In this document: piece by piece, positions 4,381 through 29,269 of the stretch
Numbering within the stretch: position 1 is the first letter of the stretch
How the letters are laid out: every line of letters starts with the position of its first letter
Assembly: GCA_002457555.1 (NCBI GenBank)
Contig: NTJQ01000001.1
Coordinates: 62,001 to 126,000, forward strand
Source of the DNA: Marine Group II euryarchaeote MED-G37
GTDB lineage: Archaea; Thermoplasmatota; Poseidoniia; Poseidoniales; Thalassarchaeaceae
Direction: 5' to 3'
DNA: 64,000 nt
Position numbers and translations under genes: made by a program
Notes under the pieces: model-generated
The model's input: the letters and a program-made list of their open reading frames with translations, nothing else
The model's database searches: none
Told to the model about the DNA's origin: nothing

Positions 4381-4746
4381 ATGAGTAAGAACATGAGAAA
4401 GACCAACCAGGCCCTAATCGCCCTAATCGGCGATCTCAAGGACCAGAGCAGGTCAACCGGTTCTGCACTGTGGCGAGACGTCGCTCTGAGGCTCGAGAAG
4501 AGCCGAAGCAATTGGGCTGAACCGAACCTGAGCCGCCTGAGCCGATATGCTGCCGAAGAGGATGTAGTCCTCGTTCCCGGCAAGCTTCTCGGTAGTGGCG
4601 ATGTGGCCGGTAAGCCGAGCGTCGCCGCCTACAGTGTTAGCATCGGTGCCCGCTCGAAGATTGAAGCAGCAGGCGGACGTGTCCTCACGATCCGTGAATT
4701 GATGAACGAGAACCCAGATGGAAAGGGGGTGAGGATACTTGGCTGA
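4381..4746 (+). CDS. rpl18e: 50S ribosomal protein L18e
   Basis: MSKNMRKTNQALIALIGDLKDQSRSTGSALWRDVALRLEKSRSNWAEPNLSRL matches the archaeal L18e pattern; followed by L13 and S9. Confidence 0.92.
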   Translation: MSKNMRKTNQALIALIGDLKDQSRSTGSALWRDVALRLEKSRSNWAEPNLSRLSRYAAEEDVVLVPGKLLGSGDVAGKPSVAAYSVSIGARSKIEAAGGRVLTIRELMNENPDGKGVRILG

Positions 4747-20852: not shown

Positions 20853-23800
20853 ATGTTAGATAAAAAAATGATTGCAATGCTGATGACACTCAGTATGCTT
20901 GCGGCATCACTCGCAGGCTGTCTGGGTGGGGATGATTGGGAAGCGGATCCGGCGGACGATTTGTCCGCGGATATCGTTACTTCCGCATGGGACCCAATTA
21001 TACCAAACTTGAACGACGGTGAGATGTGTGATGCCATAATCTCTGCCATGACAAAGACGGATGCGCGCGACCAAGTTGTCGACTTCACTCGCGGTTACTA
21101 CACAAGTAGCCAAGGTGTAATCGGTGCTGCAGGTTCCGCGTCAATCTCGGACGTCTCAGATCTGAACGCAGCTGGTACAACCATTGCTGTACAGTCTGGT
21201 ACTACATCCGATCTTTATGCCAACGAAAATTTGGCTATGGCTACAATTGTTGCTTACGATGATTTCCCATCGGTAACAGCAGCCGTCTCAAACGGAGAGG
21301 CAGACTACGCTATGGGAGACTCCCCTGTGCTTGCTCTTTCCGGCGACCTGATGACCACATTCTCTGACGAGACCTTCGGAATCGCAGTACGTGAAGATTC
21401 AGGCGAGCTACTTGGCGCACTCAACGTTGCTATTACTGCAATCGTTGATTCCGGTGAGTACGACGCTATCTTTGGCGAGTGGTTCGATGGAGCAGTCGTC
21501 CTAACCGACGACCGCGACGCGGATACCGCTACATCCTACCCAGAACTAAGCGAGGATTCAACCCTGACAGCAGTTCTAGAGGCAGGTTCGCTGAAGTTCT
21601 GTTCCGACACAGCATACCCTCCATTCGAGAACCTCGATGAGAACGGTAATGCAGTTGGATTCGACGTCGACATTGCTAACGCACTTGTCGATGAGATCGC
21701 AGCTCACTATATGGGAACCGATAACCCGATGTTCGAGGGAAGCCCTGCTGTTACTATCAAGCTAGGATTCCTAAACGATGCATCTGGTCCAATTTCCCAG
21801 TTCGCAGCTCCATTCACTTTCGCGTGGGGAGCAGCTATGGCTGACCTCAACGCAATGGGAGATGACTACATCTTCGAGGTAATTGAGGCAGATTCTGCAT
21901 GTGACGGTACAGCGGCTGGTACAGCAGCTCAGTCCCTTTTGGACGCTGGAGTTGTTGCAGTAGCTGGTGCAGCTTGCTCTGGAGCATCAATGGGTGCAAA
22001 CGCAGTCCTTTCGGCTGCAGGAGTCCCAATGGTATCCTACGCTAGCACATCGCCAGCACTAAGCGACGCCACTGCATACCCTCACTTCTACAGAATTGTA
22101 CCAAGTGACGCACTACAGGGTCAAGCCGCAGCTGACATGATTGGAGCAAGCGGAGTATCCAACACCGCTATTGTTCACATGACCAACAGCTACGGTGCAG
22201 GTCTAGCAGACGCAGTCGCAGCCAACCTAGGCGCAGATAACGTATGTCTACAGTCCGGATACGAAGAGACCGCAACCGACTTCCAAGCTGCTGTTCAGGC
22301 AGTTGTGGACGCTGGATGTGACTCAGTATTCCTAGGATCGTATTCCTCTGATGGTGCAATGATCGTAGAGACTATGGCTGTAATGGGTGCAACAATCCCA
22401 ATTTTCAGCGCAGACGGTATGGCTGGAGAAGCAGCACTGAACGACTACACACAGCCTGCAGCAGCTAACGGCATTCAGGTCACACGACCTCGAGCAGCCG
22501 CAGCTGGCGGTACAACCGCTTTCACTGACGCTTGTGCAGCAGACGCAGTCTGTTCGACTGGTATCTTCACCGCAGAAGCATATGACGCAGTAATGATGAT
22601 CGGTCACGCTGCAATGCACGAAGATGGCGCAAACATGGCTACGCACATCGACATGGTCGGTGACGGCTATGCTGGAGAGAGTGGAACACACAATTTCCTA
22701 GACAACGGTGATGTCGGTGGCTCAGGTTACGATGTCTGTACATTCCACCACGTACCAACATACGGCGAGTACTTCAACTGCGACCGAATGTGGGACGCTG
22801 GTAGTGACGCAGGAGTAACTGCAGCACCGTTCACTGGAGTTACAGTCAAGATTGGATTCTTGAACGACGCAACCGGACCTATTGCAGAATACGGACCTGG
22901 ATTCGTTGCAGCATCCCAGATTGCTCTTGGCCTAGCCAACACAATCGGATACAGCAGTGGAGTTCAGTTCGAACTCGTATACGCAGATTCCGGATGCGAC
23001 GGAACTATGGGTGCATCAGCAGCTCAATCACTCGTTGACGCGGGTGTATGGGGTGCAATAGGAGCAGCATGTTCCGGTGCATCTATGGGTGCTAACGGTA
23101 TCTTGTCAGTTGCTGGAATCCCTCAGATTTCATACGCGAGCACAAGCCCTGCCCTAACTGATGCAGCAGCATACCCTGGATTCTTCAGAGTCGTACCAAG
23201 CGACGCTCTGCAAGGTCAAGCAATGGCTGCTGTTGCAACAGCAGATGGTCAGGACAACATCGCAGTAGTGCACATGACCAACTCGTACGGTTCAGGACTA
23301 GCGGACTCATTCGTTGCCAACATGGATGCAGCACATATCTGCAACCAGATTGGATACGACGAGCTCACAACTGACTTCACTCAAGCAGTACAGTCAGTTA
23401 TGGACGATGGGTGTACATCTGTATTCCTTGTCTCATATGCATCTGATGGTGCAATGATCATCGAAGAGATGGCTTCTCAGGGATACTCTGGAGCTATCTA
23501 CGGTGGCGATGGAGTTGCAGAAGAAGGACTGGCGGCAGGAATGTCGGATAACTCTCTGGTAGATGGTGTAATTGCATCTAAGCCAGCAGCAGTAGGCGCA
23601 CCTGGTGAAGTTGCTCTGACTTTTGCATACCTATGTGGAATGAGCCCAGATTGTGCGGGCGGTATCTATACCGCTGAAGCATTCGACGCGGTCACGATCA
23701 TGGCATTCGCTGCTTTCACAGCACTGACCACACCAGGTCTAGACGCTGGAATGGCAGTAATGGCAGTAGGTCAAGGCTGGAACGGCGCTAGCGGTTCCCT

Positions 23801-23936
23801 GAGCTTCATGCAGAATGGAGATGTACCTGGGTCTGGATACTGTATCGGTGAGTTCTCTCACGATGCAAGCGATGATTCAGTATCGTACGACTGTACAAGA
23901 AACTGGGATCCAGTCAACGGCGTAACAACCGCTTGA
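20853..23936 (+). CDS. Multi-domain lipoprotein solute-binding protein: SBP_bac_3-type domain (lobe order permuted) plus two tandem LivK/Peripla_BP_6-type domains
   Basis: Lipobox MIAMLMTLSMLAASLAGCLGG; SBP_bac_3 motifs (DAIISAMTKTDARDQVVDFTRGYYTS; LKFCSDTAYPPFENLDENGNAVGFDVDIANALVDEI); duplicated VTIKLGFLNDASGPI / VTVKIGFLNDATGPI with SGASMGAN..YASTSPAL in each. Upstream of LivHM/G/F genes. Confidence 0.85.
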   Translation: MLDKKMIAMLMTLSMLAASLAGCLGGDDWEADPADDLSADIVTSAWDPIIPNLNDGEMCDAIISAMTKTDARDQVVDFTRGYYTSSQGVIGAAGSASISDVSDLNAAGTTIAVQSGTTSDLYANENLAMATIVAYDDFPSVTAAVSNGEADYAMGDSPVLALSGDLMTTFSDETFGIAVREDSGELLGALNVAITAIVDSGEYDAIFGEWFDGAVVLTDDRDADTATSYPELSEDSTLTAVLEAGSLKFCSDTAYPPFENLDENGNAVGFDVDIANALVDEIAAHYMGTDNPMFEGSPAVTIKLGFLNDASGPISQFAAPFTFAWGAAMADLNAMGDDYIFEVIEADSACDGTAAGTAAQSLLDAGVVAVAGAACSGASMGANAVLSAAGVPMVSYASTSPALSDATAYPHFYRIVPSDALQGQAAADMIGASGVSNTAIVHMTNSYGAGLADAVAANLGADNVCLQSGYEETATDFQAAVQAVVDAGCDSVFLGSYSSDGAMIVETMAVMGATIPIFSADGMAGEAALNDYTQPAAANGIQVTRPRAAAAGGTTAFTDACAADAVCSTGIFTAEAYDAVMMIGHAAMHEDGANMATHIDMVGDGYAGESGTHNFLDNGDVGGSGYDVCTFHHVPTYGEYFNCDRMWDAGSDAGVTAAPFTGVTVKIGFLNDATGPIAEYGPGFVAASQIALGLANTIGYSSGVQFELVYADSGCDGTMGASAAQSLVDAGVWGAIGAACSGASMGANGILSVAGIPQISYASTSPALTDAAAYPGFFRVVPSDALQGQAMAAVATADGQDNIAVVHMTNSYGSGLADSFVANMDAAHICNQIGYDELTTDFTQAVQSVMDDGCTSVFLVSYASDGAMIIEEMASQGYSGAIYGGDGVAEEGLAAGMSDNSLVDGVIASKPAAVGAPGEVALTFAYLCGMSPDCAGGIYTAEAFDAVTIMAFAAFTALTTPGLDAGMAVMAVGQGWNGASGSLSFMQNGDVPGSGYCIGEFSHDASDDSVSYDCTRNWDPVNGVTTA

Positions 23937-24022: not shown

Positions 24023-27000
24023 ATGCTGCACGATGCCCGAGAAAATTTTTCTGAACTCCCTAGAGGGGTTCGAAGAATCATATTCGCAGTCTTACTATTC
24101 GTTGATGCGAATTTCCTTGGTACTCTGAATGGCTACGGATCTCTGAATCTCCTAGACATGCTATTAGGAGATACACTGCCTAATGATATGGTGTGGTTGA
24201 TTCAGTTAATCGAATCAATTACAGCAGGTTTTGTTGTAATTAAGGTAATTTTTGATGATGTTCCAAGTAGTCCATATCGGATGTTTGCCCTCCTTCTATC
24301 ACCATTTTTCATGGTAGCAGTAACCTTCTATTCTCTTGATTTACTACTCGAAGGACTTGGTGCAAGCGCTGGATTCACACTTGATTTAGTATCGATTACT
24401 ACAGGCACTCTCACTTGGTCTTCGACTTACTTGGCGATTGCCATTGGTTTGACTCTGACCTACAAGGTTCAGAGATACGGTAATTTCGCTCAATCTGAAT
24501 TATTCATGATTGGAATGTATCTCTCGATGATTATGATTTGGACAGACTATTTCTTTCCTATGACCAGTCTTTCTACAACCAAAGAAGGAGTATTGACTTG
24601 GTCGGTATTGGCATTCACTTTGATTGCCGCATTCATCCTAACCGGCTTTGCTGGAATCATCATTGATCGCCTGGTCTACAAAGGGTTTCGCAAAACTCAA
24701 GCAAGCCCACAAGTGATGATGATTGCATCTCTTGGTGTTGCGTTAATTCTTCGAGCCTTGACTTACATGCGATTCGGCGCGGGAAGAAACATGTTCGAGC
24801 CAGAAGGAGATTGGCGAATGCCGAATCTTCGCTGGGAACTCCCAACAACAAAGATGCGCTTCAACCTAGGAGAAAGAAATCTCGAAGAGGGTAGAACCTA
24901 CACACAATGGACCTGTGAAGAAACCATAGACGAAACTACCGGCGAACCGGTACTAACTAGAATAGTCAGTGATACCTCAAAACCCGCTATCGAAATCTAC
25001 GACACTACTGCTGATTGTGTAACTCAAGCTACAACCAATTATGCCTACTACAAAGGTGCCGTACCAGTGGTAATGTTCTCAGCAGTATTGTTGTTGATGC
25101 TACTCCTGAACAAAACTCGCCTAGGCAGGAGAATGAGGGCGGTTGCAGATAACCCAGAATTGGCTGCAAGCAGTGGAATCAATGTCGAGAGAGTACACAT
25201 GACGAGTGCTTTTCTCTCAGCAGGAATATCAGGAATGGGCGGTGCAATCTTTGCTTTGACTCTAAGATTTAATCCAGAAACTGCATTCACTCTCCTTCTA
25301 CCATCCTTTGCGATAATAGTTCTCGGAACAATCGGCTCCATTCCTGGAGCGGTAATTGGGTCTCTGGTTGTTGGATTTGTGCGTGCACTATCCTCTCCAG
25401 TATTGATTGGGATAGGCTCGCCTCTTGGACGTTCAAATTATTCTGCACTGGATGGCGTAATGCCGTACATCTTCTTGGTCGCGATTTTGATGATTATGCC
25501 CGAAGGTATTGGCGATGCATATGAGAAATGGAAAATCGATCGTCTTAGAAAACGAAAAGAATACGACCCCGAAAAATCAGACAAGGTCACAGCCATTTTG
25601 GCAATTTTACCAACCGGCATATTTGGAATACATCACTGGTGGAGAAATAGAACCGACAAGATGCAAAATTTCTCCGCCGTTGCAATAGCAGCATACGCTT
25701 TCCATCGATTTAGCGATTTCGTAGCGAAAAATTCGTTCGCAAAGGGTTGCGGGGATACTTGTCAGGACGACGAATTCGTAGACACCAATCTAGCAGTTCT
25801 GACCGGTAGGAATGATGGAACTTTGCTATTGGAAGACTCCCCGTTGGATGAATCAGATTTGTTGAGTCAAAAGTCACCTCCCGAAGGATTGACACCTGCA
25901 GAGGCTGAGATATGGACCACAAACGCAGTTTCGGATATGAATGAATCCTGGTTAAATCAAATGAACTTTGAAATTGATATGGTCAATTTCATAGTTGACC
26001 TAGGGGACATCCTTTGGCCATGGGCATTCGTCTTACTTTGGGTCTATTCAATCTATGAAGGAATTTCTATATTACAAGGAAAATACGAAACTCAGGGCTC
26101 ACAAAATGTCACAGTGAAAATAAGCGAGGCGATCTCCTCAATTTCAATTCAATTCAGTAAATTACAGACCCAAATTCTACTTCGCTGGTCAGAATTCGAT
26201 AGGAAACATGACCAAATTGTCAAGCAGATTCGAGAAAAAATATCTCAATCATCTAGTGGTTTTACCACAAAGGTAAGTACAGAATCTGGCAAGCTATACT
26301 CCAACATCCTCGAGAGACTGCCAATAGGTTCAGCAGACGATAAGCAGAACCTGCGAAGTTATGGAAGGGAGAGTCCAATTGGTTCTTGGATTCTTTTCGG
26401 TTTGTTGATGTTCATTCTGATATTGTTCTTAGTCTGGTTACCAATTGCTGAGTCTGATGATTTCCGATTCAAGAAGGTACTACAGGTATCCAACGTTCTA
26501 CTAACTCTCTCAATTTTCATTCTGATGTCTTTCTCTCTCAATCTACACACCGGATATACAGGAATGGTCAACTTCGGTGTTATCTTCTTCGTCGCTATTG
26601 GAACAATAACTGTCGGGATTCTCACTGCTCCAGAGAACCTTCACGGGTATGATTGGGCGATTTTACCGGCACTATTGATTGCCCTACTGCTAGCCGCAGC
26701 CTTTGGTTGGGCGCTAGCATATCCAACCGCTCGCCTAAGAACTGATTATTTCGCAATTGTAACAATATCACTCGGTGAGATTGTCAGGGTACTACTCGCA
26801 GGTGAGCCATTGCTAAGAGTTGGAGCGGTCGGCAATGCAATAGGAATTTCTTCCTATCCATTGCCTTTCGAAGACATGTGGTTCTGCGGCTCAGAAACCT
26901 CTGGTCCCGGCACAAATTGGGTTAGTCCAGATGCCTGCCGAGATGATCCAACTCTAACCAACACTCCAGCATATCTGATTGGTGAATGGTTGAATTTAGG

Positions 27001-27772
27001 CGAGCCAGCACCATACATGTTCTTGCTGATGATTATGTCCGTTGTGGCAGTAATCCTTGTTTGGATTCTATTGAACAGAATCCTTTCCTCACCATGGGGT
27101 CGAATCCTAAAGGCAATCCGAGAGGACGAAGAGGTAGCACAACACCATGGTCACGATGTTCTAACTCACAAGGCGGCAAGCCTAGCTCTAGGTGCCTCAA
27201 TCGCAGCTCTCGCCGGAGCTTTCTGGGCTTGGAAACTAACTGGATTTGAGCCGAGCTTCATGTCCCCGGCCCGCTCAACTTTCCTAGTTTGGGCCGCATT
27301 CATAATTGGTGGCGCATCAAATAATCGAGGAATGGTAGTTGGAGCATTCATCATCGTCTTAATGGAGTTCGTATTCAATGTATTAGTCGCAGGACAAGGC
27401 TCTGCAGATCTTCCACTACACACCACAGCAGCTCGTATTGATTCGTTGTTTGAGTGGCTAATCCTGAGCCCATGGGAAGTAGTAAGCGTCTTCCTAGTTG
27501 CAGCATTTGTCGGATTTGCAATACGCTCAGAAAGAATTCTTGAAATCGGCTTAGCCGGTGTGGCGGTCTTTTCATTCACTGCAATTGCTCTTGGTCAGCG
27601 TTCAATCGATGAATCGTTCTTTGGTGGCGTGGTATCTGCTGACATGCTTTACTTCAAACTCTTCTTGATTGGCTGTTTGATGCTATTTTCATTGAAGTTC
27701 AACACCAAGGGTCTACTTCCAGAAGTACCGGTTAGACCCGAGCGCCCCAATGGAGGTGAGGTTGTTGAGTGA
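24023..27772 (+). CDS. Fused LivH-LivM branched-chain amino acid ABC permease
   Basis: N-half LivH-like (GNFAQSELFMIGMYLS, RRMRAVADNPELAASSGINVERV, SIPGAVIGSLVVGFVRAL); C-half LivM-like (NLHTGYTGMVNFGVIFFVAIG, PTARLRTDYFAIVTISLGEIVR, GRILKAIREDEEVAQHHGHDV). Confidence 0.88.
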   Translation: MLHDARENFSELPRGVRRIIFAVLLFVDANFLGTLNGYGSLNLLDMLLGDTLPNDMVWLIQLIESITAGFVVIKVIFDDVPSSPYRMFALLLSPFFMVAVTFYSLDLLLEGLGASAGFTLDLVSITTGTLTWSSTYLAIAIGLTLTYKVQRYGNFAQSELFMIGMYLSMIMIWTDYFFPMTSLSTTKEGVLTWSVLAFTLIAAFILTGFAGIIIDRLVYKGFRKTQASPQVMMIASLGVALILRALTYMRFGAGRNMFEPEGDWRMPNLRWELPTTKMRFNLGERNLEEGRTYTQWTCEETIDETTGEPVLTRIVSDTSKPAIEIYDTTADCVTQATTNYAYYKGAVPVVMFSAVLLLMLLLNKTRLGRRMRAVADNPELAASSGINVERVHMTSAFLSAGISGMGGAIFALTLRFNPETAFTLLLPSFAIIVLGTIGSIPGAVIGSLVVGFVRALSSPVLIGIGSPLGRSNYSALDGVMPYIFLVAILMIMPEGIGDAYEKWKIDRLRKRKEYDPEKSDKVTAILAILPTGIFGIHHWWRNRTDKMQNFSAVAIAAYAFHRFSDFVAKNSFAKGCGDTCQDDEFVDTNLAVLTGRNDGTLLLEDSPLDESDLLSQKSPPEGLTPAEAEIWTTNAVSDMNESWLNQMNFEIDMVNFIVDLGDILWPWAFVLLWVYSIYEGISILQGKYETQGSQNVTVKISEAISSISIQFSKLQTQILLRWSEFDRKHDQIVKQIREKISQSSSGFTTKVSTESGKLYSNILERLPIGSADDKQNLRSYGRESPIGSWILFGLLMFILILFLVWLPIAESDDFRFKKVLQVSNVLLTLSIFILMSFSLNLHTGYTGMVNFGVIFFVAIGTITVGILTAPENLHGYDWAILPALLIALLLAAAFGWALAYPTARLRTDYFAIVTISLGEIVRVLLAGEPLLRVGAVGNAIGISSYPLPFEDMWFCGSETSGPGTNWVSPDACRDDPTLTNTPAYLIGEWLNLGEPAPYMFLLMIMSVVAVILVWILLNRILSSPWGRILKAIREDEEVAQHHGHDVLTHKAASLALGASIAALAGAFWAWKLTGFEPSFMSPARSTFLVWAAFIIGGASNNRGMVVGAFIIVLMEFVFNVLVAGQGSADLPLHTTAARIDSLFEWLILSPWEVVSVFLVAAFVGFAIRSERILEIGLAGVAVFSFTAIALGQRSIDESFFGGVVSADMLYFKLFLIGCLMLFSLKFNTKGLLPEVPVRPERPNGGEVVE

Positions 27773-28556
27773 ACCTGTACTAAGGGTAGAAAATCTCCGA
27801 AAGGAATTCGGCGGCCTAGTCGCTGTAAAGGACGTCTCTTTCGAAGTGGGTCCAGGTGAATTCATTGGATTAATTGGCCCTAACGGCTGTGGCAAATCTA
27901 CCACATTCAATTGTATTAGCGGATTGTTGAATCAGACTGCAGGGGACATCGAGATTTTTGGTAAGGACGCTTCTAATATGCGGCCGGACCAAATCCAAAA
28001 TCTTGGATTTACCCGAACCTTCCAGCATACTCGCTTATGGCGACAAATGACAGTGATTGAAAATCTACTAGTCCCTCCTCGTGAACAATTCAAACCTAAT
28101 CCATTAGCGTCAATTTTGCAATTATCTTCGTCTGCTGAGGAAGAACGTCTTGCTCGCGCATACGATGTGTTGGAACAATTAGAAGTTCCACACATGGCAC
28201 ACAACATGGCCAGCGAACTTTCAGGTGGCCAATCAAAATTAGTAGACATAGGACGCTCAATGATGGGCAATCCAAAGTTGCTACTACTCGATGAACCAGT
28301 GGCCGGTGTAGCGGGGCCGCTGGCGATGAAGATATTCAACAATCTAAGGCAAATCGTAGACGAAACCGGGATATCAGTTCTAATTATCGAGCACAATATG
28401 GATTTCATTCTCAGGCAAGGCGTAGACAAAATCGTCGTGATGAATGAGGGAGAGGTTCTGATGGTGGGAACTCCGGACGAAGTTCGTAGCAACCGAGAGG
28501 TTATCGAAGCATACCTAGGTGCTGCAGGTGATGAATCAGGAGGTGAAGAAGAATGA
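27765..28556 (+). CDS. livG: ABC transporter ATP-binding protein LivG
   Basis: GLIGPNGCGKSTTFNCISGLL, LSGGQSKLVDIGRSMMGNPKLLLLDEPVAGV. GGAGGTGA precedes an in-frame TTG at 27765, so the ORF start (27750) is probably too early. Confidence 0.9.
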   Translation: MSEPVLRVENLRKEFGGLVAVKDVSFEVGPGEFIGLIGPNGCGKSTTFNCISGLLNQTAGDIEIFGKDASNMRPDQIQNLGFTRTFQHTRLWRQMTVIENLLVPPREQFKPNPLASILQLSSSAEEERLARAYDVLEQLEVPHMAHNMASELSGGQSKLVDIGRSMMGNPKLLLLDEPVAGVAGPLAMKIFNNLRQIVDETGISVLIIEHNMDFILRQGVDKIVVMNEGEVLMVGTPDEVRSNREVIEAYLGAAGDESGGEEE

Positions 28557-29269
28557 GCGACAGAGTTCTCGAAATCAATGGAATGAACAGTGGTTATGGC
28601 TCCGTCCAGATTCTATATGACATTAGCTTGTACGTGGATAAGGGAGAATTCGTCACCATCATTGGTCCGAATGGTTGCGGCAAGTCAACTTTAATCAAGA
28701 CAATTTTTGGAATAGCCACTCATTATTCAGGGACAGTTGAACATGAGGGAGAAGAAGTGTCTGGATGGAGAACTGACCAGTTAGTCAATCGAGGGATTGC
28801 ATACGTTCCACAGGTGAACAATGTATTCCCCTCTTTGACTGTTCATGAGAATTTACAGATGGGTGGAAACAAACTTCCTTCCGCTATACTCGCCGAGAGA
28901 ATTGAACGTGCACTGAATATGTTCCCTGATTTGCAACAGCGAACTCATGACCTTGCAGCTTCCCTTTCAGGCGGTGAGAGGCAGATGCTGGCGATTTCTC
29001 GTGCGCTAATTTCCAATCCTACTTTCCTATTGCTTGACGAGCCGACAGCAGCACTTTCCCCCCTCTATCAGCAACAAATTATCGAAAGAATCGATGCTCT
29101 GAGAGAAGAAGGAATCACCGTACTTATTGTCGAGCAGAACGCTAGACTGAGTCTTGCTCGTTCCGACCGAGGGTATATTTTCGCCAACGGTAAAGTAGTC
29201 CATACTGGCGACGCACAGCATATTCTGACGGATCCAGAAATCGGCGAGTACTTCCTTGGTTCTCATTAA
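28553..29269 (+). CDS. livF: ABC transporter ATP-binding protein LivF
   Basis: TIIGPNGCGKSTLIKTIFG, LSGGERQMLAISRALISNPTFLLLDEPTAALSP; ATGA overlap with livG. Confidence 0.92.
   Translation: MSDRVLEINGMNSGYGSVQILYDISLYVDKGEFVTIIGPNGCGKSTLIKTIFGIATHYSGTVEHEGEEVSGWRTDQLVNRGIAYVPQVNNVFPSLTVHENLQMGGNKLPSAILAERIERALNMFPDLQQRTHDLAASLSGGERQMLAISRALISNPTFLLLDEPTAALSPLYQQQIIERIDALREEGITVLIVEQNARLSLARSDRGYIFANGKVVHTGDAQHILTDPEIGEYFLGSH

Follow-up and report, generated by a model that had tools for sequence, protein, structure and literature searches.

The window, a stretch of 64,000 nucleotides from a Thalassarchaeaceae genome of ~1.28 Mb in 25 contigs (Marine Group II euryarchaeote MED-G37), carries on its forward strand an open reading frame (ORF; 20853 to 23936) encoding a lipoprotein of 1,027 residues. 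The ORF list and Pfam searches resolved this protein into a signal peptide, an SBP_bac_3 domain in permuted order (residues 38 to 287), and two Peripla_BP_6/ANF_receptor domains adjoining genes for LivHM, LivG, and LivF. The features of the locus are as follows.

20853..20921, + strand: signal peptide with lipobox LAGC and putatively lipidated Cys23 (translation; from the motif)
20964..21485, + strand: first part of the permuted domain, corresponding to the canonical middle and C terminus, with beta2 of lobe 1, IISAMTKTxxR, lobe 2, the return hinge strand, and the C-terminal helices (Pfam profile 39 to 131; canonical archaeal profile 87 to 270)
21486..21587, + strand: C-to-N junction DGAVVLTDDRDADTATSYPELSEDSTLTAVLEAG, which closes the ring from the canonical C terminus to the canonical N terminus (homologous to the junctions in permuted relatives of the MGIII type and from Asgard archaea)
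21588..21713, + strand: canonical N-terminal segment, beta1 and alpha1, LKFCSDTAYPPFE...GFDVDIANALVDEIAAHY, placed last (Pfam profile 1 to 37; canonical archaeal profile 32 to 85)
21750..22808, + strand: first Peripla_BP_6 (LivJ-type) binding domain (Pfam)
22842..23912, + strand: second Peripla_BP_6 (LivJ-type) binding domain (Pfam)
24023..27772, + strand: fused LivH-LivM permease with two BPD_transp_2 stretches (ORF and Pfam)
27750..28556, + strand: LivG-like ATPase, ABC_tran plus the branched-chain C-terminal domain BCA_ABC_TP_C (Pfam)
28553..29269, + strand: LivF-like ATPase, ABC_tran (Pfam)

The combination of a lipoprotein bearing three binding domains with LivHM, LivG, and LivF encoded downstream identifies an operon encoding a Liv-type importer with a triple receptor. 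The sequence-only reading had recognized a lipoprotein with a permuted domain, which stands, but the range it gave stops inside the 1,027-residue ORF, and the two Peripla_BP_6 domains were absent from its description.

In the translation, the LAGC lipobox is followed by SADIVTSAWDPIIPNLN...DAIISAMTKTDARDQVVDF...YDAIFGEWF and then by LKFCSDTAYPPFENLDENGNAVGFDVDIANALVDEI. The whole receptor matched the Pfam SBP_bac_3 profile (PF00497) at 2.3e-25 and 89.3 bits, well beyond a chance match and above the gathering score of 26.4. Profile positions 39 to 131 aligned with residues 38 to 212 and positions 1 to 37 with residues 247 to 283, approximately, both parts exceeding the gathering cutoff separately (66.1 and 32.0 bits); the same swapped pair was found in relatives. 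Against a canonical profile built from 19 canonical-order SBP_bac_3 proteins of Asgard archaea, positions 87 to 270 matched domain residues 3 to 179 (152 bits) and positions 32 to 85 matched residues 196 to 248 (45 bits). These matches are complementary to one position, indicating that no segment was lost or doubled, and their order indicates that the domain is a permuted variant of SBP_bac_3 and not an ordinary, canonical-order member. When the domain was rotated computationally, two residues at a time, and rescored against the canonical profile, the best single match rose from 152 to 195 bits, the optimum lying within the linker between EWF and YPELSED. In searches of the PDB, AncCDT-1 was recovered in two pieces (27.7 and 72.2 bits) with the native order and as one alignment (111 bits, residues 14 to 245) with the rotated order. 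Residues 38 to 287 are thus supported as a circularly permuted SBP_bac_3 domain in which all segments are present once, as the sequence-only reading had proposed from the elements, their order, and the retention of one full lobe set.

AlphaFold2, supplied with an alignment of 43 sequences from the window and related loci, predicted one compact fold with a mean pLDDT of 93.4 and a pTM of 0.89, the N-terminal segment and the junction being about as confident as the remainder. A Foldseek search of the PDB matched the model to AncCDT-1, ArgBP, GlnBP, and LAO with E values down to 2.9e-15. Because Foldseek aligns in sequence order only, the coverage of ~175 columns, with TM-scores of 0.62 to 0.71 (~0.6 by query and ~0.7 by target), is what is expected for a permuted query. 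The confidence of the AlphaFold2 model suggests that the N-terminal segment occupies its place on the canonical fold. The structure prediction called for by the earlier reading therefore returned a single confident domain rather than two half-domains.

The permuted order recurs in some 80 Thalassarchaeaceae genomes. Matches to the domain were obtained in 83 of 293 genomes of the order, all those listed belonging to family f1, with four of the 83 matching only through a distant short relative. Of 80 loci drawn from the species-level collection of genomes, about 70 belong to the family of the window, several being from single-cell genomes, and the same order was found in 60-odd named Thalassarchaeaceae/MGIIb contigs, again with single-cell assemblies among them; the named carriers of the gene are Candidatus Thalassarchaeaceae or Marine Group IIb archaea. 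In the other family of the order (f2), the Liv receptors examined carry LivJ domains, one or two per protein, and lack SBP_bac_3. Conservation in about 80 genomes, including single-cell genomes, indicates that the order is not an assembly fault, and a frameshift was likewise ruled out by the same stop-free ORF in dozens of independent metagenome-assembled genomes (MAGs) and single-cell genomes. The alternative that the protein consists of two incomplete, noncomplementary half-domains, or is such an artifact, can accordingly be given almost no weight: the halves complement each other to one profile position, the model is compact and confident, and we found no evidence favoring either possibility. 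Among the Thalassarchaeaceae homologues that we read over their full length, in no case did an intact N-terminal segment precede the domain, an arrangement that would have contradicted the permutation. Two candidates for a hidden N-lobe, L016 with a longer leader and L020 with a longer linker, were rejected, since the extra stretch in each is a CTDxxAxNYN...DDGSC linker.

A CTDxxAxNYNxxANxDDGSC repeat occurs in some interdomain linkers of the triple receptor (L014, L016, L020, and L084), the linker that carries it differing from genome to genome. In a 1,297-residue version of the receptor (L083, G078:C38), the lipobox region before the permuted domain is replaced by a zinc-ribbon-like N terminus, a transmembrane helix, and DxDxDG (thrombospondin type 3-like) repeats.

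In the window, the chain of the domain is cut between alpha1 and beta2 (lobe 1), and comparison with other archaea revealed relatives with different ends. Five Asgard domains from four genomes (L159, L162, L184, and two copies in L156/L185) are cut at the entry to lobe 2. Their order is lobe 2 entry, C-terminal helix, junction, and N-terminal segment, the domain ending just before lobe 2; the single-copy proteins carry a C-terminal membrane anchor after the domain, and in L156 two permuted copies stand in tandem. The AlphaFold2 model of L159, obtained from a four-row alignment, had a pLDDT of 39.6. The lobe 2 entry cut was also found in three proteins (L212 to L214) of another family of the same class (f3, MGIII type), which is probably Marine Group III, and in a family of short proteins of 333 to 348 residues present in some Thalassarchaeaceae genera. 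A third cut was found in one genome alone: the Asgard protein L186 has the C-terminal helix first and the return hinge strand last. Finally, two Thalassarchaeaceae proteins (L071 and L072) contain, inside large unrelated secreted proteins, a canonical-order domain that is 53 to 57% identical to that of the window and starts with the second half of the window-type junction, YPEPSEGSSLSHILETGEL. In these two proteins (894 and 1,219 residues, respectively), the SBP_bac_3 domain is flanked by FxCDNGEEIPASWxNDGExDCxDGSDE-like repeats resembling LDL-receptor class A repeats. An additional f3-type ORF (L234, G752:C3) holds the C-terminal helix, junction, and N-terminal segment; a stop or frameshift upstream apparently removes most of the lobe 2 part from the frame.

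The junction, of ~30 residues, is alike in the window type (DGAVVLTDDRDADTATSYPELSEDS), the f3 type (GDEIVVLTDDTNANTATEYPAEPTG), and L186 (SGSVVLTDDSTTNTSTTFPARADITEGG), with z scores of 9.0 to 9.6 against shuffled sequences (9.2 for the window versus L186 and 9.6 for the window versus MGIII-type L212). The f3 junction (L212) matched those of the Asgard lobe 2 types L184 and L185a with a z score of 5.1; scored individually, the window junction was not significantly similar to those of Asgard L159, L184, and L185a (P = 0.17 to 0.40). In a tree of rotated domains, 24 permuted-lineage rows, including L071 and L072, were split from 33 canonical archaeal rows with support values of 100/96, and L071 and L072 were grouped with the window type at 100/100. 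The shared junction, the differing chain ends, and the canonical order of L071 and L072 together indicate one closed ring whose ends lie in at least three different places, namely, at the lobe 2 entry, between alpha1 and beta2, and before the C-terminal helix. The permutation was probably not made in the protein of the window but inherited from an already permuted archaeal binding protein and then re-cut. We lean toward a single ancient C-to-N closure, after which the ends would have moved at least twice round the ring, with one branch returning to the canonical order and the binding site being kept throughout. Conversely, L071 and L072 might retain the ancestral order, the window type having arisen by a single permutation separate from those of the MGIII-type and Asgard proteins. 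AU tests leave some room for such an independent event, as they rejected neither a tree with L071 and L072 lying outside the rows of permuted domains (P = 0.095) nor one with the two next to the window type (P = 0.45). This scenario is nonetheless improbable in view of the homology of the junction in the window type, the MGIII type, and L186 and of the grouping of L071 and L072, which start with half of that junction, with the window type.

For the origin of the ring, the sequence-only reading had offered a pruned tandem duplication as one option, to be examined by comparing homologues for a tandem-duplicate form. Related archaea do contain SBP_bac_3 domains in tandem, two to four per array (L187, L232, and L233), and together with the permuted tandem L156 they fit this route, as examples of the arrangement and not as demonstrated ancestors. 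Among the Thermoplasmatota, L232 (1,285 residues) has four tandem canonical domains and L233 (990 residues) has three. Direct descent from L187 was rejected, since its linker shows no relationship to the permuted junction (P = 0.25 and 0.94) and the tree places it among canonical proteins; it therefore serves as an example of tandem architecture only. One ring closure followed by re-cutting through head-to-tail copies is the economical reading of these data.

The ligand positions of SBP_bac_3 receptors (the arginine of TxTxxR, the aspartate of GDxP, the Ser/Thr pair, GTT, and the W/F position) are unchanged in the window-type, MGIII-type, and Asgard permuted proteins, and in 10 of 10 window-type rows checked. 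The roles of the TxTxxR arginine, the lobe 2 aspartate, the Ser/Thr residues, and GTT in amino acid contact are presumably those of LAO and HisJ. The best NCBIfam subfamily for the domain was the lysine/arginine/ornithine receptor, at a score far below the cutoff. Most likely, the domain acts as an amino acid receptor for the Liv-type ABC importer. A PAAT importer that is encoded elsewhere in the genome and lacks a binding protein of its own may be served by it as well.

That second partner is suggested by contig C4 of the window genome (G000), which carries purC, a PAAT permease fused to YCF48, and a HisP-like ATPase. No binding-protein gene lies between purC and the permease in this genome, the gap being only ~106 bp, whereas some sister genera have a short permuted SBP gene there; in G025, a gene for a 326-residue permuted binding protein occupies exactly that position. 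Short permuted SBP genes adjoin the YCF48-fused permease in Asgard, f3, and Thalassarchaeaceae genomes, with the HisP-like ATPase also alongside where the locus extends far enough. The N-terminal domain of the permease consists of YCF48/BNR-like repeats, as seen at positions 4466 to 6514 of L242 (G000:C4) and 4578 to 6887 of L235. Delivery in trans of an amino acid from the permuted domain to this permease and ATPase is a tentative possibility. It agrees with the missing gene and with the loss of the carboxylate-binding arginine in all three members checked of the short Thalassarchaeaceae SBP (family 2). It agrees also with the co-occurrence of permease and window-type receptor in 21 of 36 family genomes, compared with 5 having only one of them (permease in 4, receptor in 1) and 10 having neither (Fisher P = 3.7e-5, uncorrected for kinship among MAGs that are related and incomplete). 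Against it, G078 and G185 carry a window-type receptor without such a permease, and the receptor shares its chain with LivJ domains and has its gene beside that of the Liv permease. A regulatory function appears less probable still. As a ligand sensor tuning the Liv importer, the Type II domain would no longer deliver substrate, in line with its being an N-terminal addition absent from f2 Liv receptors and with the fact that Liv permeases do not usually work with Type II domains. However, the amino acid contact positions are all unchanged, which fits sensing as well as delivery, and multireceptor importers such as GlnPQ deliver from tandem binding proteins (PMC8025302).

The short relatives of 333 to 348 residues (L073, L074, L075, L080, L081, and L166 to L175) have a C-terminal transmembrane helix and have lost the ligand arginine and the YPPFE motif. 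They are probably decayed or repurposed receptors. In coastal metatranscriptomes, livK of Thalassarchaeaceae was among their most transcribed genes (PMC9723583), and this livK is likely the gene described here.

PAAT-family SBP_bac_3 receptors (HisJ, ArgT/LAO, GlnH, AncCDT-1, and Thermotoga maritima ArgBP) are homologous to the domain over its entire length and match it in ligand-contact residues and, as far as sequential alignment reaches, in predicted fold. Unlike in these proteins, the chain in the window is rotated, with the canonical ends joined by a conserved junction, and whereas they work alone with a HisQM-type permease, the window domain is fused to two LivJ domains. LivJ and LivK of LIV-I importers (PF13458/PF01094) are of the same kind as two of the three receptor domains, and the whole operon (LivHM, LivG, LivF) corresponds to theirs. 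The difference is the extra permuted Type II domain at the N terminus, by which a single lipoprotein unites a Type II receptor with Type I receptors. The top PDB sequence match was SBD1-SBD2 of GlnPQ (6h30), a tandem of SBP_bac_3 receptors (PMC8025302). Its head-to-tail copies on one chain represent the architecture needed as an intermediate but, unlike the window domain, both are complete, canonical, and fused to a permease. A parallel for the permutation itself is TpMglB-2 (Tp0684) of Treponema pallidum, a naturally permuted Type I receptor for glucose, for which the class "Type Ic / Cluster Bc" was proposed (PMC4990184); it is the only natural example with a described structure that we found. 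Both are natural, conserved permutations in membrane-tethered binding proteins of ABC importers, and TpMglB-2 keeps ligand binding (PMC4990184). For TpMglB-2, a sugar receptor of Type I, a single cut point was described (PMC4990184), whereas the window lineage is a Type II amino acid receptor with several cut points and one junction. The window domain matches Type II SBP_bac_3 and not the Type I/Cluster B fold of a sugar receptor; it resembles the TpMglB-2 class in being permuted and is not a member of it. In the part of the literature covered, we found no natural permutation of SBP_bac_3, the permuted proteins there being TpMglB-2 and engineered sensors, and no report of one ring with several cut points.

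Together, these results lead us to propose, with a probability of about 0.9, that the locus encodes a complete, ligand-competent permuted Type II domain of re-cut archaeal descent, fused to a Liv receptor and handing over an amino acid to an ABC importer. Head-to-tail copies whose outer halves were trimmed would have given rise to a permuted domain. In the archaeal lineage from which the window protein would descend, the junction was already closed and the ends lay elsewhere, at the lobe 2 entry (MGIII-type and Asgard proteins) or before the C-terminal helix (one Asgard protein). In the window type, the canonical C terminus is joined to the canonical N terminus through the conserved junction, the chain being opened between alpha1 and beta2, and fusion would have placed this domain after the lipobox of a Liv-type receptor carrying two LivJ domains. 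The order, completeness, and conservation of the domain, the homology of its junction, and its binding residues are observed here, whereas the ligand, the partner, and the route through tandem duplication are inferred. A polar amino acid captured at the cell surface would then be passed to the neighboring Liv permease or to a PAAT-type permease encoded elsewhere in the genome.

Circular permutation is a common engineering trick in binding proteins and is rare naturally in this superfamily. The lineage described here is an unusually clear case, read from sequence, in which the ends of a protein moved during evolution while its binding site was retained. The SBP_bac_3 tandem arrays are the kind of duplicated intermediate that duplication and trimming needs. 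Since one ring is found with different ends across archaea that also have such arrays, this route can be tested step by step.
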